Below the pieces are notes generated by a model. The model searched no databases. It had not been told where the DNA came from and saw only the letters and a program-made list of their open reading frames with translations. Source: Rhodopirellula sp. (lineage in GTDB: Bacteria > Planctomycetota > Planctomycetia > Pirellulales > Thermoguttaceae). Taken from it: a stretch of DNA of 64,000 bases. Made by a program: the position numbers and the translations under genes. Location: positions 1 through 64,000 of the forward strand of contig JAAYEH010000479.1 of assembly GCA_012728855.1 (NCBI GenBank), given 5' to 3'. Shown here one piece after another: positions 3,001 through 61,683 of this stretch. The number at the start of each line of letters is the position of its first letter. Positions within the stretch are counted from its first letter, which is position 1.

Positions 3001-6000
3001 GGGATTTGGGGATCGGGTAGGCTTCGAAACGGGGCCGGCTGCCCGGCGCCGCATCGGTCTCGATCTGCGCCAGGGCTTTATGAATCGCCTCCTGCTCGCT
3101 CGGCAAGGCCCAAGCCAGCAGGCGATTCGTCTTGGCATCGACGACGAAGCGGGCCGTCGGCAACAAGCTCTCGAGCATCGTGACCGTGCTGGTGGGATCG
3201 GCCGACTGAAGCGGATAGGCCACCAATTGCCGCTCGTCGGCCGAGGTGGCGGCGATCTGATCCAGCGACGTCTTGATTGCCTCGTGCTGCGAAGGGGGCG
3301 CAACTACCATGATCCGCAGACCGTCCTCGCTCAGTGTGATCTGCGCCAGCGGCGCGAGCTGCTGCAGGCCGGGGATCAGTGTGGCGGGGGCGCGCTGCTT
3401 GAGCGTGTAGTAGCGCAGCTCGGGGGCGTCGGGCATGGGTTTGTCCGACTGCAATTGCTCCAGCGTCGCGCGGATCGTCTCCTGGTCTGCCGGCACGGCC
3501 AGGGCGACGAGCGTCCGCGTGGCCGGGTCGATCGAGAGCGTCGCATCGGGAACCAGCGGCTGAAGCGTTGCCACGGTCGCGCTGGGGTCGATCTTGCTGA
3601 GCCGGTAGACCTCCAATTGCGGACTGGTCTGCGGAGATGCCGTGACCTGGAGCTTTTCGATCGCCGTCTGGATCTGCTGGTGGTCGCTGGGCGTGCCCCA
3701 AGCGACGAGTTTCTCGCTCTTCGGGTCGAGCGACAGCCGCGCATTGGGGATGAGCGTCTGCAGCGTGGAGAGGATTTGCGCGGCTTGCGATTTCTGGATC
3801 GGGTAGACCTCGAAGCGGGGTTGACTGCCCGGGGCCGCGTCGGCCTGGATTTGAAGCAGCGCCGTCTTGACTGCCTCCTGCTCGCTCGGTCGTGCCCAAG
3901 CCAGCAGGCGATTCGTCTTCGGATCGAGCACGAACTGAACCGTCGGCAGAAGGCTCTGGAGCATCGAGAGCGCGCTGGTGGGATCGGCCGTGTCGATCGG
4001 ATAGGCGACCAGTTGCCTGGTGTTGGCCGGCGAATCGGTGGCCTGGTCGAGCGTCTTCTTGATCACTTCATGCTCGGCGGGCGTGGCGACGACCATCAGC
4101 CGTTTCTTTTCCGGCTCGGGAGTGACCTGGGCGTCGGGGACGAGCTGAGTCAGGGCCGCGAGCACGGCCGCCGAGGGCACCTCGTCGGCCGGGTAGAGCC
4201 GCAATTCGGGGACGTTCGAGCCCGGTTCGCCAGGCTGAAGCTGTTCGAGCGTGGCCTTGATCGTCTGTTGATCGGCGGCGGTGGCCAGGGCGATCAGGCT
4301 GTGGGTGCGGGTATCGACGGAGAGCCTGGCGTTGGGAACCAGGGTGGCCAGCAAGGTCTGGGCGCTGGTCGGATCGACGCGCGTCAGACGGTAGACCTGC
4401 AGTTGGCGGGTCTGATCCGGGGAGCCGAGGCCGCGGAGTTTTTCCAGTGTGTTCTTAATCGTCTCCTGATCGGCCGGTTTGGCCCAGGCCACGAGTTTGC
4501 CGGTGGTCGGGTCGATGGAAAGCTGCGCATCGGGGAGCATCGACTTGATCGTCGTGATCAGTTGGTCCGCCCCGGGCTGATCCACCGTGTAGACCTCCAG
4601 CTTGGGGCGTTTCTCTTCGGGAAGCTGGCCCTGCATCTGCTCCAGCACCTTTTTGATCGCTTCTTGCTGCGAAGGCGGGGCATAGGCGTTGATCTGCGCG
4701 ATCTTGGGATCGAGCACGATGTTGACGGTGGGGAACAGCGCCTTGAGCACTTCCATGACCGCCTGCGGATCGGCGCCGCCCACCGGATGCACCGTCAGCA
4801 CCGGCTTCTCAGCCGGTGTTTCCGGTTTCGGCTGAGGTTTTTGCGGCTCGGGAATCGACTCGATCACCTTGCCGATCGCCTGCATCGCGCCGGCGGTGGT
4901 GGTGACAAGCATCTGCTTCGTGGCCGGCAACAAGACCGCCTTGCCGTGCGGGCCCAGCAACGGCGCGATCTCCTTTTCGACCGCCTCGGCGTCTTTGGCG
5001 CCCAATGGGAAGAGGGTGTTCACCAATTCGAATTTGCCGCGCTGGTCGAGTTCCGCGGCTGCGACGCGGGGGATCATGTCTTCCGGCACACTCTGTTTGA
5101 GATCGACGACGACCAACATCCGATCGCGGCGGATCAACGCGTAGCCTTTCGTGATCAACACACTGTTCAACAGATCGATTGCTTCGGAGGGGGTGTACTC
5201 GCGAGTGTCGGTGTAGTTGAAGGTGCCGGGGGGCGGGGCGTCGACCACCAACGAGAGATCGGCCTGCTCGGCAATCCAGTCCATCACGTCGGCCCAACGC
5301 TGAAAGCGGAAATTGAACCGCAAGCGCGGCTCCGCCTGCTGCATGGCAAACTCCGTCGTTTGCTCCGCGGTGAGCACGGCAGCGAGTTTCTTGTCGCTTT
5401 CCTTTCGGACCGCGGCGCGCTCCGCCTCCGACGCCTTTGCCAATGCATCGGCCCTTTCGGAGAGCGCGGTGGTAATCTGCGCCTGTTGCGCCTCGGTGAG
5501 TTTCAAGCGTCGCACCACCGGCGGCCTGGCCAGTTCTTCGTAGTTGAAATCGGGAAGCGGCGGCTCCTCCGGGGCTTTGGGGGTAGGCGCGGGCTCGGCG
5601 GGCTTCTCCTCGGCCGGCTTGGCCGGCGCCGCTTCCGCGGGCTTGGTTTCGGCAGCCGGGGCCGGAGGTGTTTCGGCCGGTTTCAGCTCCGCGGGCTTCG
5701 CTTCGGCTGGCGCGGCGGCCGGGGTTTCGGCCGGCTTGGCTGCGGATGTCTCCGCCGGTTTCGGCTCGGCTGGCGGCGCTTCCGCCGGCTTGGCTTCCGC
5801 AGGCGTTGCCGGTGGCGGCGTTTCCGCCGGTTTCGTCTCGGCGGCAGGTGCCGGGCTGGCCGCCGGTGTCTCCGCCGGTTTGGGCTCGGCGGGGGGGGGC
5901 TCCGCCGGCTTGGATTCCGCAGGCGCCGCTGGTGGTGTCTCCGCGGGTTTCGTCTCCGCCACTGGGGCCGGCTTCGCTTCGGCCGGCTTCGCTTCGGCCG

Positions 6001-11649: not shown

Positions 11650-13203
11650 GTGCGTGCTATTGCCGGCGTAGGACTGCTGATATTCCTGGGTTTCGCGGTA
11701 GCGCCCCTCGCGGGCCAGGAGATTCGCATCACCGAGTTTCAAGTCGAGGGCAATCCCCCCGATGGCGAGATGAAGATCACCCTAAACACCCAGAGCAAGG
11801 GGATCGAACTGGGGAGCTTCTGCATTCGACTTGCCGATTATACCGCGCCGGCGCCGCCGCCGGGATTCGTCCGCCAGTCCAACGGTTACGAATACCTCCA
11901 AGACGCAGCGGGCGGACTGCCGCTGCCCAATCTGGCCGATAATGGTCCCCTGGACGAAGACCCTCGCAGCGGCGGCTTCGCAATAACGATCTCGACGACA
12001 ACTTGGCCACCGGGCAAGTACCTGCTCATGGTAGCTGCGCATAACCGTCCGGCCGGAGGCCCTTACGTCCAGGACAGCCGGCCCGTGGCCTTCCGGATCG
12101 GTGGCGACGGCGAACCGGCGGAAGCGGTTGGCAATGTGCCCGGCGCCAAGCACCGCGTGGTCTACGAGAAGCCGGGCGTCTATGCCTGTTTCCCCAGTCT
12201 CACCATCCGCCCGGACGGTCGCCTGACGACTTCCTTCGGCACCCGCACACGACGGAGTCACATCGACAACAGCGGCGGTTCGCTCACGCTCGACTCCGGC
12301 GACCGCGGTCTGACCTGGACTGCCGGCGAGCATCCGGTCGTTGACCGGCGATGGCAAACCCGCGACGGACTGCTGGCGACCGCCGCCGCCCGCGGCTGGA
12401 TCCAAACCGACGCGAAACAGCGGGAAGAGTTGGAGTCGCAGGGCAAGACGGTCCTGCCGGTTCGCGACGGTGTGATTGCTTATCTGGGTGGGGCGAGTTG
12501 GCGAGTCAGCCGCGACGGCGGCAAGTCGTGGGAGTCGCACGTAATCGACGTGCCGGAGTATGTCTCCGGACTGATGGGCTTCCATCATGCGGCCAGCGAA
12601 CTGGCCGCCGCGGACGGTCTGCGGCTCGTCGCCGTCTACGGCGCTCGCATTGCGGACGTCCTCGCCGGTCGTACCTCGCGCGACGAGGTCTTCCTGCTCC
12701 GTTCCGCCGACGACGGGCAGACCTGGCAATGCCTGCCGATGTTGCCCGAAGGGCTGGGCGATTCAAAGGTCGGCTTCAACGAAACGGCGCTGGTCGAAGC
12801 CGGCGACGGTCGCATCCTGGCCTTGATGCGAACGGCGCCGGAGACCAGTCTCTATCAAAGTTTTTCGTCCGACCGAGGACTCACCTGGACCAAACCGGCC
12901 GACAGTGGCATTTCGGGGCATCCGGCGCATCTGCTCTTGCTCAAGGACGGTCGCCTGTTGGCAACGTACGGTTACCGGAAACGCCCGATGGGAATCCGCG
13001 CCTGTTTCAGCGGCGACCACGGCCGGACCTGGCAGACCGACCGAGAATGGATCCTCCGCAACGACGGGTTCGGCAGCCCCGGCGACCTCGGTTATCCGCT
13101 CACCCACGCACTGGACGACGGCCGGCTGATGACCATCTACTACTTGACCACCGACGGCATGAACACTCATATCGCTACGACGCACTGGGAGCCGCCGAAG
13201 TAG
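11650..13203 (+). CDS. Exported sialidase-like BNR/Asp-box protein
   Basis: GTG start chosen because GGAGG lies seven bases upstream and the product then opens with a signal peptide (MRAIAGVGLLIFLGFAVAPLAGQ). Longer reading from an upstream ATG would bury the signal. About 517 residues. After a ~120-residue N-terminal beta domain come at least five Asp boxes (S-x-D-x-G-x-T-W type: DSGDRGLTW, SRDGGKSW, SADDGQTW, SSDRGLTW, SGDHGRTW), the mark of a six-bladed propeller of the sialidase/neuraminidase superfamily. Known for the family: glycan cleavage or binding outside the cytoplasm. Whether it hydrolyses sialic acid is not shown, since the arginine triad cannot be assigned by eye. The next gene starts 12 bases on and is likely co-transcribed. 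Confidence 0.82.
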   Translation: MRAIAGVGLLIFLGFAVAPLAGQEIRITEFQVEGNPPDGEMKITLNTQSKGIELGSFCIRLADYTAPAPPPGFVRQSNGYEYLQDAAGGLPLPNLADNGPLDEDPRSGGFAITISTTTWPPGKYLLMVAAHNRPAGGPYVQDSRPVAFRIGGDGEPAEAVGNVPGAKHRVVYEKPGVYACFPSLTIRPDGRLTTSFGTRTRRSHIDNSGGSLTLDSGDRGLTWTAGEHPVVDRRWQTRDGLLATAAARGWIQTDAKQREELESQGKTVLPVRDGVIAYLGGASWRVSRDGGKSWESHVIDVPEYVSGLMGFHHAASELAAADGLRLVAVYGARIADVLAGRTSRDEVFLLRSADDGQTWQCLPMLPEGLGDSKVGFNETALVEAGDGRILALMRTAPETSLYQSFSSDRGLTWTKPADSGISGHPAHLLLLKDGRLLATYGYRKRPMGIRACFSGDHGRTWQTDREWILRNDGFGSPGDLGYPLTHALDDGRLMTIYYLTTDGMNTHIATTHWEPPK

Positions 13204-36636: not shown

Positions 36637-37650
36637 ATGGTCCGAAGCAATCGACGCAGACAAGATAGCGATTATGACGGAGCATGGAAGGAAGCCCTCC
36701 ACCAGTACTTTCGGGAAATCCTGAAACAGTATTTCCCGGGCGTCGCCGAGGTTGTCGATTGGAACCACGAGCCGCAGTGGCACGACAAGGAACTGAGTCA
36801 GGTGCTGGCGCAGGCCGGTCATCGCGCAGGCTTGGTGGATATACTGGTCAAGGTGCGGTTACTCAACGGGAACGAGCAATGGATCTTCCTCCATTTCGAG
36901 GTACAGTCTGGGCGTGAAGAGAACTTTGAACTGCGCATCGCCCGCTACAACGGAGGCTTGTCCTGGATCTACAAGGAGCGAGTTGTCAGCCTGGTGATCT
37001 TGGCGGACTTGGACGAGCATTGGCGGCCCTCTGAGGACGTTTTTCGTTTGGCGGATTTCGAGAGCCGCCTGCGGTTCCCCGTATGCAAACTGGTCGACCG
37101 AGTCGATCACGAGTGGCGAGAGGATAATCCTTCGGTTGCCGTGCAGGTCGCGAGAGCGCAGATTGCCGCCCTCCGTACGGCGGGCAACCCGGAGGGACGA
37201 TACCTTGCCAAGTGGCAAATAGTACGCAATCTGTACAGTTTGGGATATAATGGGGATGAGTTGCGAGAGGTTTTTCGCTTGGTGGACTGGATGGTGCGTC
37301 TGCCCGAGAATTTGAGCCGAGAATTCGAGAAAGAGTTGACGGCCCTTGAGGAGAACTTGAACATGCCTTACATCACATCGGTTGAACGGATCGCGGAAGA
37401 GCGGGGCGAAGAGCGGGGCGAAGCGCGAGGTGAAGCGCGGGGTAGAGCTACGGGTAGGGTTGAGGGCAGCTCAGCGGTTCTTCGGAAGCAGCTTGCCAGA
37501 GTCTGTGGTCCGCTGCCCGTGGACATAGAGCAGCGAATCCAGCATTTGTCCATCGGGCGGCTAGAGCTTCTGGCGGAGGCGCTGTTGGATTTCCGCTCTC
37601 TGCAAGACTTGCGAGTTTGGCTCGACGCGCACGACGAGCTTGCCCAGTGA
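36637..37650 (+). CDS. Rpn-family PD-(D/E)XK nuclease / recombination-promoting protein
   Basis: 337 residues from the ATG preceded by AGGAG. The nuclease core has VDIL (Asp68) and FLHFEVQSGRE (Glu88, Gln90), the D...E-x-Q pattern of the Rpn/PDDEXK_2 group once called putative transposase. Then helices and a low-complexity stretch (EERGEERGEARGEARGRA, from a short DNA tandem repeat) before a C-terminal DUF4351-like domain. Rpn proteins cut DNA and raise RecA-independent recombination in E. coli; copies are numerous and variable between strains. Flanked by unrelated housekeeping genes, so it is probably an accessory gene. Confidence 0.85.
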   Translation: MVRSNRRRQDSDYDGAWKEALHQYFREILKQYFPGVAEVVDWNHEPQWHDKELSQVLAQAGHRAGLVDILVKVRLLNGNEQWIFLHFEVQSGREENFELRIARYNGGLSWIYKERVVSLVILADLDEHWRPSEDVFRLADFESRLRFPVCKLVDRVDHEWREDNPSVAVQVARAQIAALRTAGNPEGRYLAKWQIVRNLYSLGYNGDELREVFRLVDWMVRLPENLSREFEKELTALEENLNMPYITSVERIAEERGEERGEARGEARGRATGRVEGSSAVLRKQLARVCGPLPVDIEQRIQHLSIGRLELLAEALLDFRSLQDLRVWLDAHDELAQ

Positions 37651-38746: not shown

Positions 38747-39922
38747 TTAGCCGATGATCCGCTTCCACCGCTCCATGTTCCACTGGGCCTTTTCGGCCGG
38801 GGACATGCGGCTGAAATCGGGCTCTTCCACAAAACCGTTTGACGGCATCGCCGCCGTCGTCGGCGCCGCTTTCGGCGCGACTGCGGCGCCGCTCCCCCCA
38901 TAGCTCGTCATCGTCGCGGTCTGCTGGAGGTCGTCTTCCAGCGAGCGATAGGGCTTGATGCCGAGCTTGCGGATATCGGAGTGATAGGCGCGGACGGCTT
39001 CCTCCGGACCGACCTGATCGTCGGCTACCGCACGAAGGTACTTCACGAAGGTGAGCTGATCCTCGGCGCTGTTGATCTTCCGCCCGTAAAGGGCGACTCG
39101 CGCCCCGTACTTCTTTGCCTCCCAGAGCATATGGAAGGCGTCGTAGGTGGTGCCGGATGAACCGCCGAGAACCCCCACGACCAGAGAACGGTCGTAGCCG
39201 GCCAATGCCTCCATGGCGGCTGGTCCGAAGTACGGGATCTTCAAGAATAGAGGACGGCCCGAACGCGTCACACCGGCCAACGCCCGCACGATCTGGTCGT
39301 TGACGAAGCGGGCGACGTCCTTGGGCGGATGCTCGCCGGGCGCGTTGGGGGCAAAGACTTCGAGGAAATGCCGGAAGCCTTTGCTCTCCGCTTCCAGGCG
39401 AAAGGCGCGATAGGCTTCGAGTGTTTCGCGGTCGCGGTCGGTGTCGTTGTTGAACGTGCAGGAGTAGAGCCCCAGGTCGGCCCCGCGGCCTCGCTCGGCC
39501 GGTGCGCACTCGAGCTTCCCGCACATGATGTGGTCCAGCGTGGCAGTGCGGAACGGGCGAGAAGGCTGCGACGTGTAGCGCCCGCTGCCGGAGGCCAGCC
39601 AGATGTCGGTGGTGTCGTTGGCCCGAACCGCCGGAGTAATGTGGCTTGAGTCAAACAGCCGCTCCTGGATCGTCAGCACCTCGTTGGAGCTGGCGCTCAT
39701 CAGCATGATGTCGACCAGCCCCTGCCGTACGATGTCGCGCATCAACTGCCGATACTCGGACAAGTCTCGGAAGCGAGCTTCGTGGGCGTAGTGCTCGGGA
39801 CTCCGGCCGGGCGCCGCCAGGCCAAACGCCATGTCGGCATCTTTGGCGTCGGCAAGGATGAAGTCGCGGCAGGCCGAATCGGCCAGAATCCGCGCGAGTT
39901 TCAGATCCAACGACTTCTGCAT
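38747..39922 (-). CDS. Aldolase-like (TIM-barrel) protein
   Basis: 391 residues. The ATG is preceded by GGAG at about ten bases; the longer frame upstream is unlikely. The sequence shows alternating strand-helix segments of a TIM barrel: VDIMLMSASSNEVLT, RHFLEVFAPN, RPLFLKIPYFGPAAMEALA (a Lys that could form a Schiff base), LVVGVLGGSSGTTYDAFHMLWEAKKYGARVALYGRKI. This resembles class I/LacD-type aldolases but the family is not one I can name, and the substrate is unknown. Isolated between gspF and an esterase gene. Confidence 0.55.
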   Translation of the reverse strand: MQKSLDLKLARILADSACRDFILADAKDADMAFGLAAPGRSPEHYAHEARFRDLSEYRQLMRDIVRQGLVDIMLMSASSNEVLTIQERLFDSSHITPAVRANDTTDIWLASGSGRYTSQPSRPFRTATLDHIMCGKLECAPAERGRGADLGLYSCTFNNDTDRDRETLEAYRAFRLEAESKGFRHFLEVFAPNAPGEHPPKDVARFVNDQIVRALAGVTRSGRPLFLKIPYFGPAAMEALAGYDRSLVVGVLGGSSGTTYDAFHMLWEAKKYGARVALYGRKINSAEDQLTFVKYLRAVADDQVGPEEAVRAYHSDIRKLGIKPYRSLEDDLQQTATMTSYGGSGAAVAPKAAPTTAAMPSNGFVEEPDFSRMSPAEKAQWNMERWKRIIG

Positions 39923-40222
39923 AGCTGCCAGTCTCCAAAAAACCGGAATAATCCTGAAAGCCGCCACAGCAGCCGCGCCGGCCTCCGCCCCACGCGCGGC
40001 CCATTGGGCACTGCGGTTAAACGACCAATTCGCAACACCTTAGAACCTTTACAGGGGTGCGTAGTCTTCCTAAGCTTCCAAGTATAACCCACGGTTGAGT
40101 TTGCCGCCAGAACCCTACTTTGGGCTGGGGTGTCCGCAAGCCGCGTAGTCCTTGCCCGGAGCTTTCCGCCGAACTATCCTGGCATCCAGTCTTTGCGCTC
40201 CCCACTGCGAAGAGGAACTGCC
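39923..40222. other. Divergent intergenic region
   Basis: Three hundred bases between the aldolase-like gene (leftward) and the esterase gene (rightward). No credible gene, no clear hairpin or repeat. Promoters for both should lie here. Confidence 0.4.
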
Positions 40223-41131: not shown

Positions 41132-42604
41132 CTACGATTCGCAATCGCGCCGCCTCTCGGCAAACAACTCGTTCAACCTCTCCAGGTCGACCGGTTTGAC
41201 GAGGTGGGCGTCGAAGCCGGCGTCGAGGGCTTGGCGCCGGTCGTCCGGCTGTCCGTATCCGGTCAGTGCCACCAGGAAAACACCGTCGTTCTGCGGATTT
41301 TTTCGGACGGCGCGGGCAACCTGGTAGCCGTCGAGTCCCGGCAGGCCGATGTCGACCAGGGCGACCTCGGGGCGTTGGAATTCGATCATCTCCAGTCCCT
41401 GCAAGCCGGATTCGGCTACGGCGACTTCGTGGCCGTCGAGTTCCAGTACGGTCTGGAGCATTTCCCGGGCGTTGGGGTTATCTTCGACGACGAGGATCCG
41501 CATCTCCGAAACGTTGGACTCGGGCGCGGAATGCCTTGCCGTGCGCCGCGCGGGAGTCGTCAGGGGCAGTCGGACCGTGAAGGTGCTGCCACGGCCGAGG
41601 CCCTTGCTCTCCGCCACGACCGTGCCGCCATGGAAGCCGACCAGGCTTCGCACCAGGGCCAAGCCAATCCCCATTCCGCCGTTGGACTTGGCCAGCGAAC
41701 TTCCCTCCTGGACGAACGGCTCGAAGATGAAGTCGAGCTTATCGGGGTCGATGCCGATGCCGTCATCTCGGATGCGGACGATCACTTCCGATCGATCGTG
41801 TTCGGCAATCAACCGGATGTGCCCGCCCGGTTCGGTGTACTTTGCGGCGTTGGTCAACAGATTGGCGAAGATCTGGTGGAGGCGCGTCGGATCCCCTTGT
41901 ACGTAGATCGGGCAGCGTGGAACGTCGAGATCGAATCCAAGTCGGTTTTCACCGATCAACGGCAGCACGACCTGCACCGCCTGATGGATTGTCTCGCGGA
42001 GGTCAATGGCTTCCTTGCGAAGTTCGATTTTGCCTTCGCAGATCCGGGAGACGTCGAGGAGGTCGTCCAAGAGGCGGGTCATCTGGCGGCTTTGCGTGTC
42101 GATGACGTCGCGGGCGCGGCTGAGTACCCTCTGGTCGTCCGCGGCGCGCTGCAAGATGCGGGACGCATTGACGATGGCCGCCAAGGGGGTGCGCAGTTCG
42201 TGGGAGAGAACGGCGAGAAACTGATCGCGTCGCCGCAGGGCTTTGCGGTTCTCCTCTTCGCGCCGCTTTCGCTGCGTGATGTCGCGAAGCGTGGCCAGAT
42301 GCGCGCGATTCCCCTGCCATTGGATTTCGACCGCCCGCATCTCCGCAACACGGCGCTCGCCATCGGGGGCGAGGTAGTCGATCTCCGTCGCCACGTCTTT
42401 GGCGATGGAGATTTCGAGTCGATTGCCCCGCAACTGCGCGCAGGTACGCCCCAACATGACCGCTGCCTGCTGATTCACGAAACGAATCGTCAAATCGTCG
42501 CCGACGACAAGGATCCCGTCCGCGCATTGTTCGACGATCGCCTGGAACCGGGCATCGCTCGCTTCAAGTCCGCGTTGCAGAACCTCTTTCGTCTGGACGC
42601 TCAT
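41132..42604 (-). CDS. Soluble PAS hybrid histidine kinase with receiver domain
   Basis: 490 residues with no membrane segment. A PAS domain covers ~15-110 (FQAIVEQCADGILVVGDD). The H-box LAVLSHELRTPLAAIVN gives phospho-acceptor His135. The ATPase has the N-box FANLLTNAAKYTEPGG, DDGIGID and GGMGIGLALVRSL. A C-terminal receiver (~367-485) has VVEDN, phospho-acceptor Asp418 (VALVDIGLPGLDGY) and VKPVD. A classic sensor with a built-in receiver. It lies 30 bases behind the CsrA-receiver gene on the same strand, so the two almost certainly work together: the kinase may phosphorylate the CsrA fusion. Confidence 0.93.
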   Translation of the reverse strand: MSVQTKEVLQRGLEASDARFQAIVEQCADGILVVGDDLTIRFVNQQAAVMLGRTCAQLRGNRLEISIAKDVATEIDYLAPDGERRVAEMRAVEIQWQGNRAHLATLRDITQRKRREEENRKALRRRDQFLAVLSHELRTPLAAIVNASRILQRAADDQRVLSRARDVIDTQSRQMTRLLDDLLDVSRICEGKIELRKEAIDLRETIHQAVQVVLPLIGENRLGFDLDVPRCPIYVQGDPTRLHQIFANLLTNAAKYTEPGGHIRLIAEHDRSEVIVRIRDDGIGIDPDKLDFIFEPFVQEGSSLAKSNGGMGIGLALVRSLVGFHGGTVVAESKGLGRGSTFTVRLPLTTPARRTARHSAPESNVSEMRILVVEDNPNAREMLQTVLELDGHEVAVAESGLQGLEMIEFQRPEVALVDIGLPGLDGYQVARAVRKNPQNDGVFLVALTGYGQPDDRRQALDAGFDAHLVKPVDLERLNELFAERRRDCES

Positions 42605-42634: not shown

Positions 42635-43414
42635 TTACCTGTCCGCCGAGCAGGTACATGTTTCCTGAAGTTCGCGCGAAATCTCGTGGACCAGGGATTC
42701 CGGGTTTACCGGCTTGGGGAACCATCGATCGATGCCCCGTGGACCGGTGGCCACCCCGAGTTCGCTCGGCGATGTACCGCTGATGGCAAACACCTTGAGG
42801 TCGGCAAGCCGCGGATTGTCGCGGATCGAAGCGATGGTAGCGCGGCCGTCCAGCCGCGGCATCATCATGTCCAACAGGACGACGTCCGGCCGCTCGTGCG
42901 TGGCGAGGTAATCCATCGCGGCGGAACCGTCGCCGGAGGTGGCCACGTCGAACCCGCTCACCCGCAGGAAGCCAGCCAGTAGTTCGCACTCATTGGCGTC
43001 GTCTTCCACAACGAGCGTGCGGCAAGCGCGGGGCGGCCCCGTCGCGGCGCTGGGCTCGGACTTGATCGCGGCGGCCTCGGCTTCCAGGGCTTCGAACTCA
43101 TGCAGGATCTTCTGGTACGTCTCTTCCGCCTGTTCGACCATGCCGCGATCCAGCAGCTTTCGGAACAGGTGCAAGGCGAGATTGGCCGCATGCAGCCGAT
43201 TGCGCACCGCATGCGACAGGCGGCGAGTGGGCGAGATCACGCCGGAACCCGGCAGCGCTTCGTCGTCGACGAGTTCTTCGCGCAGGATGCGAACGTCTTT
43301 CGGGGCTTTCACTCCCAAACGGGCCGTGTTTCCCTTGATCCGCAACACCTCGAGTGTTACGCCGAGATTGGGGAAAACGAGCTTCTCGCCTTCGCGGCGG
43401 GAAAGAACTAACAT
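42635..43414 (-). CDS. CsrA domain fused to helical segment and response-regulator receiver
   Basis: 259 residues from the ATG preceded by a perfect AAAGGAGG; a frame reading further upstream adds residues with no CsrA character. Residues 1-50 are a full CsrA RNA-binding domain: MLVLSRREGEK with Leu4, Arg6 and Arg7, then LGVKAPKDVRILREEL with the Arg equivalent to E. coli Arg44. A helical region (~62-118) has SHAVRNRLHAANLALHLF, like a DHp or H-box pair. Then a receiver domain with VVEDDANE, phospho-acceptor Asp182 (LLDMMMPRLDG), Ser in AISGTSP and Lys in FPKPVNP. A CsrA under direct phosphorelay control is unusual. Co-transcribed with the hybrid kinase. Confidence 0.93.
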   Translation of the reverse strand: MLVLSRREGEKLVFPNLGVTLEVLRIKGNTARLGVKAPKDVRILREELVDDEALPGSGVISPTRRLSHAVRNRLHAANLALHLFRKLLDRGMVEQAEETYQKILHEFEALEAEAAAIKSEPSAATGPPRACRTLVVEDDANECELLAGFLRVSGFDVATSGDGSAAMDYLATHERPDVVLLDMMMPRLDGRATIASIRDNPRLADLKVFAISGTSPSELGVATGPRGIDRWFPKPVNPESLVHEISRELQETCTCSADR

Positions 43415-43746
43415 GGTGGCCTCCTTTCCAACATTACGCGCAGAGCGGCTTGGGTCAACGCGCGCTCCGTCTCCAAGGATTTGCTTCACGCCGGACAACA
43501 CCGCTTCATCGGACCCGCCTGCAGGGCAGGCGGAACCGCATGACCATTGCTCGACATCCTTGTCGGAAAGGACTCCACACGGGGAGAAAGGGCTTCCTGC
43601 CCATACAATTCTCCGGTCGTCCGCTATCGTTCTACTCAAAGAACGGATTTTCGACAAGCCCAACTGTTGTCGTTCCCCTCCGCTGGGTAGTTCGGCGAGT
43701 GGAAGGCTGCGACGAGATTGACGCCGCTGGCGGAACGAATGACAGG
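43415..43746. other. Intergenic region with hairpin CCGCCTGC-AGG-GCAGGCGG
   Basis: No credible gene. A perfect 8-bp stem with a 3-base loop lies at 43515-43533; without a T-run it is a weak terminator at best. The promoter for the CsrA-receiver operon should be here, but no clear -35/-10 pair is visible. Confidence 0.4.
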
Positions 43747-45444
43747 CTATCCCGCGACTGAAGCGATGGTCCGCGACGACGACCGTTGCGACGAGGTGGG
43801 GGCGCAGAGCCGTTCGACGTCGCCCAAGTCGTTGAGCAGGCAGGGGTGCTTGTATTGTTCCATGTTGCCGCCCAACCCGGAGGTTCGCTGCAGGCGAAGA
43901 CGTTCCCAGGCGCCGTGCGGTATCTTGCGGAGTTGAAGTGGGCGGAGACGCCCGGACTCGAGTCGTTCGGCATACTCGCGGTTCATCAGCGACAGATGCC
44001 GATCGATGCTTCCGGGCAGAACCTCGTCCGCCACCGCACCTATACCCCCTTCGAGCAGTAGCTCGTAGCCCGCGGGATCACCGAAAACCGGAGCGACGCT
44101 GAATGTCTCCATAGGCAGACCGACTTCGAGGAAGCCGCTGCGGACCGCGGAGACGACCTGGAACTCGCTCAACTTCTCTCCGGTAATGTTAGAGTAGTGC
44201 GCCCCTTTGTTGAGAAATTCGAGGATCGGCACTGTGCCTTCAAAACCGACGCACCGGATCAGGTCGTGAATGTCGTAGCGATAGAACCCGCTGGAAGTTG
44301 TCAGCACGATAAAATAGTTCTGGTTCTCCTCCAGTTCGTGGGCTTCCAAAACCGTGGGATGCGGTTTTCCGTACTCGGCTTCGGGGATGAACTCGAAAAA
44401 GCTGTGAACATAGTCGAGCATCCCGGCGGGTGTGCCGTCCCGGAAAGGCAGCGTCATACGGCCCTCGCTGGCCGACAGACCGTGGTCGCGAATCGCCGTA
44501 TCGCCATAGTACTTCCGCAGGCACGGAAGATAGGCGCCGGCCGAACCGCCCGTCCAAATGGCGAGGACCGACAATGCCGGCCAGAAGTCGCGGGGAAAAA
44601 GTGCGCCGGTTCGCTCGACGATCCGCTCCAGTTCCCTCGCCCGCGCCGGGTCGCGACGTGCGATCCAGCGGCGAAGGCTGTCGCGGACTTCGCCGGGCAT
44701 ATCTACCCAGTCGGAGAGGGCGCCGTCGAAAAGGTCGCGGATCAGGGATTCCCGGCGACCGTCGGCCAATCGCGCCAATTCGACCAGGGTGCTTGGGTTG
44801 GCGGTGACGATCATCCCGACGCTGCGGTCGGCAAGGGACAGACGTAAGGCCGTGTAACGCTTAGCGATAGGATCGCAAATCTTCGTCAATGCGCGGGGTA
44901 GGAGAAAAATCGGCCGGCTGATCCAGGGTGCGGTCTCGGCCGCCAGCCCGCTGATGTTGCCGCAGGGAGTGCCCCCCTCGGTGGCGAACTGCCGCCAGTT
45001 ACTGCTGAACTGCAGCGTTCTCTTGCGCAGCAGATCCGTATGGTCCGCATAGGTCCGCAGACCCCACAGGTTCCACCCCTTGCGATATTCGTTGAAGAAT
45101 TCGCGGGTGACCGGGATGTACTTGGCGTCGCCGGTTGTTCCGGAGGTGAGGGCAAACATCAGCAAACGCGTACCGGGCCCGAATAACGCGCGCAGGTCGC
45201 CTCGCTTCAGCCGTTCGATGTAGGGCCGGTAGTCGTCGTACGAGGTGATCGGCACCTCTCTGCGAAAATCCTCCACCGTACGAATTCGCGCGAAATGGTG
45301 GCGGCGGCCGAAAACGCTCTGGGTGTGACGGCGAATTTTCTCCAAGAGAACCTGCCGCTGGATTTCACGCCCCCGATCAGCCGCCGACAGAAACTGCCGG
45401 ACCTGGAGGCCCCGCGCCAGAAGATAGCTCCTTTGAACGATCAT
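43747..45444 (-). CDS. GH3-family acyl-amide synthetase (adenylate-forming)
   Basis: About 565 residues, typical of bacterial GH3 proteins. Adenylate-forming motifs: LTSGTTGDAKYIPVT (phosphate-binding loop), then TSSGFYRYDIHDLIRCVGF near 390, which matches the plant GH3 block preceding the hinge. GH3 enzymes adenylate a carboxylic acid (jasmonate, auxin, fatty-acid-like) and join it to an amino acid or amine. I chose the ATG at 45444; a GTG at 45558 would add 38 residues that overlap a repeat-like sequence, so it is less likely. Last gene of the biosynthetic cluster; probable tailoring step that makes an amide. Confidence 0.85.
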   Translation of the reverse strand: MIVQRSYLLARGLQVRQFLSAADRGREIQRQVLLEKIRRHTQSVFGRRHHFARIRTVEDFRREVPITSYDDYRPYIERLKRGDLRALFGPGTRLLMFALTSGTTGDAKYIPVTREFFNEYRKGWNLWGLRTYADHTDLLRKRTLQFSSNWRQFATEGGTPCGNISGLAAETAPWISRPIFLLPRALTKICDPIAKRYTALRLSLADRSVGMIVTANPSTLVELARLADGRRESLIRDLFDGALSDWVDMPGEVRDSLRRWIARRDPARARELERIVERTGALFPRDFWPALSVLAIWTGGSAGAYLPCLRKYYGDTAIRDHGLSASEGRMTLPFRDGTPAGMLDYVHSFFEFIPEAEYGKPHPTVLEAHELEENQNYFIVLTTSSGFYRYDIHDLIRCVGFEGTVPILEFLNKGAHYSNITGEKLSEFQVVSAVRSGFLEVGLPMETFSVAPVFGDPAGYELLLEGGIGAVADEVLPGSIDRHLSLMNREYAERLESGRLRPLQLRKIPHGAWERLRLQRTSGLGGNMEQYKHPCLLNDLGDVERLCAPTSSQRSSSRTIASVAG

Positions 45445-61335: not shown

Positions 61336-61683
61336 CTACTGCGGAATGCGGATGCCATTGGAACGAGAGATGTTCCTGGTCTTGCTTCTGTCTCGGTCGC
61401 AGCCGACTCGGCGGTTCTGGCTCCGCTCCGGCGACGAACCCGGATGTCTCCGATCGGAACTGCCGGTGGGCTTTGACGGCGCTTGCGCCTTCTTGCCCGG
61501 AATCGGTTCGACCGCGTCCTCGCGCTGTTCGATGGCAACGGCGATCTCACCGCGGAGAACCTGGACCGTCTCCGGTGCTTCGATCCCGATTTGCACGCTC
61601 CGCCCTCGGATCCGCAAGACGGTGATCGTGATGTTCGGCGCGATCTGAATCCGTTCGTCGATTTTCCGTGTCAAAACCAGCAT
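61336..61683 (-). CDS. csrA: CsrA carbon-storage regulator with long basic tail
   Basis: 115 residues from an ATG preceded by AAGGGAG. The first ~55 residues match CsrA: MLVLTRKIDERIQI with Leu4 and Arg6, GRSVQIGIEAPETVQVLRGEI with the Arg equivalent to Arg44. E. coli CsrA ends near residue 61; here a further ~60 residues follow, rich in Ser, Arg, Pro and Gly (PSKPTGSSDRRHPGSSPERSQNRR), likely disordered and nucleic-acid binding. CsrA binds GGA-containing mRNA leaders and blocks or changes translation. Second CsrA domain in this window beside the receiver fusion, so both could compete for the same RNAs. Confidence 0.88.
   Translation of the reverse strand: MLVLTRKIDERIQIAPNITITVLRIRGRSVQIGIEAPETVQVLRGEIAVAIEQREDAVEPIPGKKAQAPSKPTGSSDRRHPGSSPERSQNRRVGCDRDRSKTRNISRSNGIRIPQ

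Follow-up and report, generated by a model that had tools for sequence, protein, structure and literature searches.

A gene at positions 42635–43414 (minus strand) of the window, the whole 64,000-nucleotide stretch of Rhodopirellula sp. DNA that was analysed, encodes a 259-aa protein in which an RNA-binding CsrA domain, a DHp-like helical pair and a terminal receiver lie on one chain. This CsrA-DHp-like-REC arrangement is no oddity and defines a conserved family. We lean, by a modest margin, towards a bolder reading in which the family combines a phosphotransfer histidine, a terminal receiver and a CsrA output on a single chain, and in which a hybrid-kinase relay would lead to post-transcriptional control.

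The gene runs from an ATG at 43412–43414 to a stop at 42635–42637, as supported by the translation, the Pfam matches and relatives of the same length. Direct reading of the sequence identifies a ribosome-binding site (GGAAAGGAGG, 43420–43429, minus strand) whose AGGAGG lies 5 nt upstream of the ATG. A longer form starting at a TTG at 43663 (342 aa) was rejected: relatives begin at the CsrA methionine, preceded by AGGAGG. A stop or frameshift between the CsrA and receiver parts had been named by the first-pass annotation as what would refute the fusion, and none is present in the minus-strand ORF (43414–42635). Full-length relatives also exclude a mis-assembled fusion, because one of them, a same-genus relative from an independent assembly, is 86–87% identical across the whole length. 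A GH3-family gene lies 333 nt upstream; no sigma-54 promoter was matched in 43415–43750 on the minus strand, and the total of such matches across the whole window is at chance level. Elsewhere in the window, a 406-aa ORF (38747–39967, minus strand) has no Pfam match.

Residues 1–50 (43265–43414, minus strand) match the CsrA family PF02599 with an E-value of 4.6e-15 and 55.7 bits, against a curated cut-off of 27, and a genome search agrees on the position. Leu4, Arg6 and Arg7 are present, and Arg45 stands for E. coli Arg44 because of a one-residue insertion. With the cut-off passed and the RNA-contact residues (Leu4, Arg6 and the Arg44 equivalent) in place, the protein meets the criteria for CsrA; that it binds RNA as a dimer is inferred. 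Residues 134–245 (42680–43015, minus strand) match Response_reg (PF00072, E 1.4e-17, above the curated cut-off) and meet the criteria for a receiver, with an acidic pair (Glu137/Asp138), the phosphoacceptor Asp182 (codon 42869–42871, minus strand), Ser212 and Lys234; its phosphorylation by the partner kinase is inferred from adjacency only. Pfam found no HATPase domain on the chain itself, so by this criterion the protein is not a histidine kinase. Thus, the CsrA-receiver architecture at 42635–43414, the key residues (Leu4, Arg6, Arg7, the Arg44 equivalent, Asp182, Ser and Lys) and the neighbouring kinase claimed by the first-pass annotation all held; the strand was absent from it.

A first search of 60 relatives returned full-length homologues from several of the order's families, and a profile built from 12 homologues was then searched against phylum and order genomes. 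This profile matched at least 16 of 392 phylum-wide genomes, all within the same class, and, within the order, at least 53 of 297 genomes, both counts being lower bounds as few candidates were scored per genome. After fetching 3–20 kb around most matches, we kept 76 members with CsrA at the start and a receiver at the end; thus, the survey of Planctomycetota proposed by the first-pass annotation yielded 76 CsrA-REC copies, from 53 of 297 Pirellulales genomes plus two other families in that class. No plasmid-borne copies were found. Leu2, Arg6, Gly34 and Asp182 are invariant across the 76 members, and Arg45, Trp231, Pro235 and Pro186 (75/76 each), Lys234 (73/76) and Asp138 (73/76) nearly so. 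Leu4 is found in 66 of 76, and position 7 is variable (Arg in 37, Lys in 15, Gly in 14). Two members, L160 (12351–12932, minus strand) and L166 (4740–5309, plus strand), join CsrA to the receiver without the DHp-like linker; they are 186–190 aa long and adjoin non-hybrid kinases. A related pair, L123 (4950–5819, plus strand) and L172 (2414–3238, plus strand), has degenerate receivers lacking the acidic pair and the lysine.

What is the linker? The first-pass annotation had noted that its SHAVRNRL segment resembles an H-box, and this claim held and is strengthened by an in-register DHp profile match and an invariant histidine. The two-helix linker (residues 60–116; 43067–43237, minus strand) carries a motif, H68-x-x-R71-N72-x-L74, that falls in register with the H-box when aligned to the neighbouring kinases. 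When compared by hhalign with the DHp of these kinases, it scored about 41.6 (probability 94.5%, P about 8e-8), placing His on His and H-x-L-R-N-x-L over H-E-L-R-N-P-L; the controls were far lower, at 9.5 for the reversed linker and no more than 15.2 across 40 column shuffles. In sliding windows along 31 long CheB-CheR-PAS kinases (64 windows), scores of 42–47 were reached only in the four windows containing the H-box, and the best score without it was 14.5. Run against the ORFs nearby, the family profile likewise matched kinases at their receivers and also at their DHp domains.

Conservation was computed on a core set of 62 members, which excludes a clade of 11 members and three degenerate copies. 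His68 (codon 43211–43213, minus strand), the candidate phosphotransfer histidine, is the one linker residue that never varies (62/62, and 43/43 after thinning to below 60% identity) and is as conserved in this set as Asp182 and Lys234; Arg71 and Asn72 reach 97%, Leu74 95% and the next-best linker residue 85%. L123, L172 and L174, whose receivers are degenerate, have lost the motif. At one locus, L138, the CsrA-receiver gene and the kinase are separated by a 92-aa ORF (5256–5531, minus strand) that looks like a linker hairpin on its own (E 3.7e-10) but lacks the histidine.

Individual linkers remained below the Pfam threshold for HisKA (best E 0.0019, 18.7 bits against a cut-off of 26.9), which was the top match, below cut-off, for two of ten; we therefore call the linker DHp-like and do not file it as HisKA. 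A search of PDB sequences with the linker profile gave no DHp match, and the acidic residue that typically follows the histidine in HisKA is variable here (Ala 15, Asp 14, Gln 12 and Glu 10 of 74). A low-confidence AlphaFold model (two sequences, pLDDT 58) shows two helices, 68–89 and 93–116, with His68 near the start of the first. An Hpt identity (PF01627) was rejected, its profile score of 14.5 (P 0.04) being no better than shuffles, and no Hpt domain was found at the CsrA-REC locus. A TPR-like helical repeat was not preferred either: the evidence consists of weak PDB matches to designed helical proteins and one TPR_19 match (E 0.044), confined to the second part of the linker and without the H-box. 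Thus, in-register profile similarity, with shuffle, reversal, window and Hpt controls, establishes the linker as DHp-like; that it transfers phosphate is inferred.

The partner gene (41132–42604, minus strand; 490 aa), assigned from Pfam matches, domain order and the intergenic sequence, encodes a hybrid histidine kinase, PAS-HisKA-HATPase-REC. It begins 30 nt past the CsrA-REC stop on the same strand, so the two genes likely form one operon. Across the family, a HATPase kinase lies within 4 kb of 61 of 76 members and within 1.5 kb of 59. Since the genomes (6.6–11.3 Mb) carry 29–79 HATPase domains each, we estimate chance adjacency at roughly 5–8%. The 59 nearest kinases are found on the same strand in 37 cases and on the opposite strand in 22, a mixed orientation indicating that the neighbourhood outlasted rearrangement. 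Hybrid partners come in two kinds, the short PAS-HisKA-HATPase-REC form of the window and a long CheB-CheR-PAS-PAS-HisKA-HATPase-REC form, and all 48 have both an intact receiver and a canonical H-box DHp.

Does His68 go with a particular type of kinase? Among members with a nearby kinase, those bearing His68 adjoin 48 hybrid and 3 non-hybrid kinases, and those lacking it adjoin 0 hybrid and 8 non-hybrid kinases (Fisher p 7e-8, a value that ignores kinship). The three exceptions are L135 and L167, which have stand-alone receivers close by, and L157_2742, which has no HxxRN motif and whose histidine is aligned only by accident. In a tree of the CsrA and receiver columns, the His-less members form a supported clade of 11, the pair L123/L172 and L174; L164_7488, in the clade of 11, was counted as His-less, its aligned histidine lying outside any HxxRN motif. 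The His-less clade keeps its CsrA and receiver residues intact, and the kinases beside it are of a different class, having HDLQ-type DHps and stand-alone receivers that look Rcp1-like to us. Hybrid status is thus confounded with kinase class because the kinases of this clade are also HDLQ-type, and with few independent events there are too few contrasts for a test. The association of His68 with hybrid partners is therefore possible and no more than suggestive. Both kinds of locus occur in one genome in several cases (for example, L155, L157, L158 and L175), and paired loci with and without His68 sometimes lie within about 12 kb of each other.

The two sets of receivers also differ at the switch position three residues before the lysine (Lys-3), which is His in 46 of 48 partner-kinase receivers versus Trp in 75 of 76 CsrA-linked receivers. 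This position has been described as variable in CckA, an intermediate receiver, and as a conserved aromatic in CtrA, a terminal one (PMC9981736); Trp in place of Tyr or Phe is unusual. Without transfer data, the pattern is in agreement with a kinase receiver that passes phosphate on and a CsrA-linked receiver that is terminal.

What could be the mechanism of signalling to CsrA? The best explanation, which we hold with slight rather than strong preference, is a four-step relay that would feed CsrA control: (i) the hybrid kinase would autophosphorylate on its own DHp histidine; (ii) the phosphate would pass to the aspartate of the kinase's C-terminal receiver; (iii) from there it would move to His68 on the DHp-like hairpin of the CsrA protein; and (iv) His68 would pass it on to Asp182 in that protein's C-terminal receiver, on the same or the partner chain. 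Because CsrA is an obligate dimer, two hairpins would pair into a four-helix DHp/Spo0B-like bundle next to the CsrA dimer, and the phosphorylated terminal receiver may then alter binding of this dimer to mRNA targets. The domains, the conserved residues, the DHp-like linker profile, the kinase neighbourhood and the kinase types found with His68 are observed; the individual transfers of phosphate, the pairing into a four-helix bundle and any effect on RNA binding are inferred, with no experiment behind them and no RNA target known. The claim of the first-pass annotation that the receiver would couple mRNA repression to phosphorylation accordingly remains an inference, no biochemistry having been found for the transfer from His68 to Asp182 or for an effect on RNA.

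Alternatively, the system could be a direct two-component pair, in which the kinase phosphorylates the CsrA-linked receiver, the linker merely dimerises or spaces the domains and His68 is structural. Kinases do adjoin CsrA-REC genes, and direct transfer is likely in the His-less clade, where the CsrA and receiver residues are intact. However, conservation at His68, Arg71 and Asn72 greatly exceeds that of the remaining linker positions, loss of the motif coincides with a non-hybrid kinase or a degenerate receiver, and a pure spacer would not need an invariant histidine; we consider this alternative unlikely. Somewhat less likely still in our view is a DHp-derived phosphatase or brake, with Asn72 and His68 dephosphorylating the protein's own receiver or that of the kinase. 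In its favour, Asn72 occupies the T/N position of the E/DxxT/N motif of HisKA and is conserved in 97% of the core set, and isolated DHp domains are able to dephosphorylate receivers; yet this reading leaves the link between His68 and hybrid partners unexplained, and the acidic residue beside the histidine is not conserved. Least credible is a phosphorylation-independent receiver that serves CsrA as a docking or masking module: degenerate receivers in a few members (L123, L172 and L174) would suit it, but Asp182 (76/76), Asp138 (73/76) and Lys234 (73/76) are conserved and kinases lie next door.

The bare CsrA-REC architecture is not new, and the first-pass annotation needs correcting on this point: CsrA is already catalogued as a response-regulator output, "ANTAR and CsrA" having been listed as RNA-binding outputs in 2007, citing Galperin 2006 (PMC2222644). 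The regulators listed there resemble the window protein in having a receiver and CsrA on one chain, but CsrA appears only as an output type, and the accessible text mentions no linker histidine, hybrid partner or mechanism. A recent review names E. coli CsrA an orphan response regulator (PMC12471899); this entry lends no support because E. coli CsrA has no receiver. In the open-access literature that we searched, nothing was found on the mechanism of CsrA-receiver proteins. Thus, the category is known; what appears to be new is the DHp-like histidine built into the chain, together with the conserved hybrid partner.

Several known systems share parts of this design. Like the proposed linker, the dimeric phosphotransferases Spo0B and ChpT are built on DHp-type hairpins whose histidine relays phosphate between two receivers (for ChpT, PMC3433190); unlike them, the CsrA protein has no degenerate ATPase domain, and its hairpin is fused between CsrA and a terminal receiver. 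ANTAR response regulators such as PdtaR likewise couple a receiver to an RNA-binding output, but their RNA-binding domain is unrelated and acts by antitermination, not on translation or stability. Free CsrA/RsmA, controlled by FliW or decoy RNAs, has the same fold, Leu4, Arg6 and Arg44 equivalent, whereas the window protein lacks the CsrA C-terminal tail and is fused to signalling domains.

The same genome also has separate canonical CsrAs, and FliW adjoins one of them. In all, this genome (G000) has 18 CsrA-domain matches, of which one adjoins FliW on contig C303; with 8.9% contamination in the assembly, some of the 18 may be foreign. A second CsrA domain with a long C-terminal tail lies in the window itself (61340–61683, minus strand; ORF of about 115 aa). 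Two further fusions were observed in this genome: CsrA followed by a HATPase_c domain (L067, 278 aa; CsrA at 11842–11991 of contig C369, plus strand) and CsrA joined to an Mrr-type restriction endonuclease domain (L066, 276 aa; CsrA at 37632–37787 of contig C432, minus strand).

In well-studied bacteria, CsrA is either held by FliW or receives kinase signals only indirectly, by way of decoy RNAs. In GacS/GacA-Rsm and BarA/UvrY-Csr, as in the system proposed here, a kinase signal ends at CsrA, but the link runs through transcription of decoy RNAs, whereas here it would act on the protein. If the relay is correct, CsrA itself would be the direct target of a sensed signal. The paired loci, with or without His68 and with hybrid or non-hybrid kinases, offer a ready-made comparison for asking under which conditions a phosphorelay requires an intermediate histidine.
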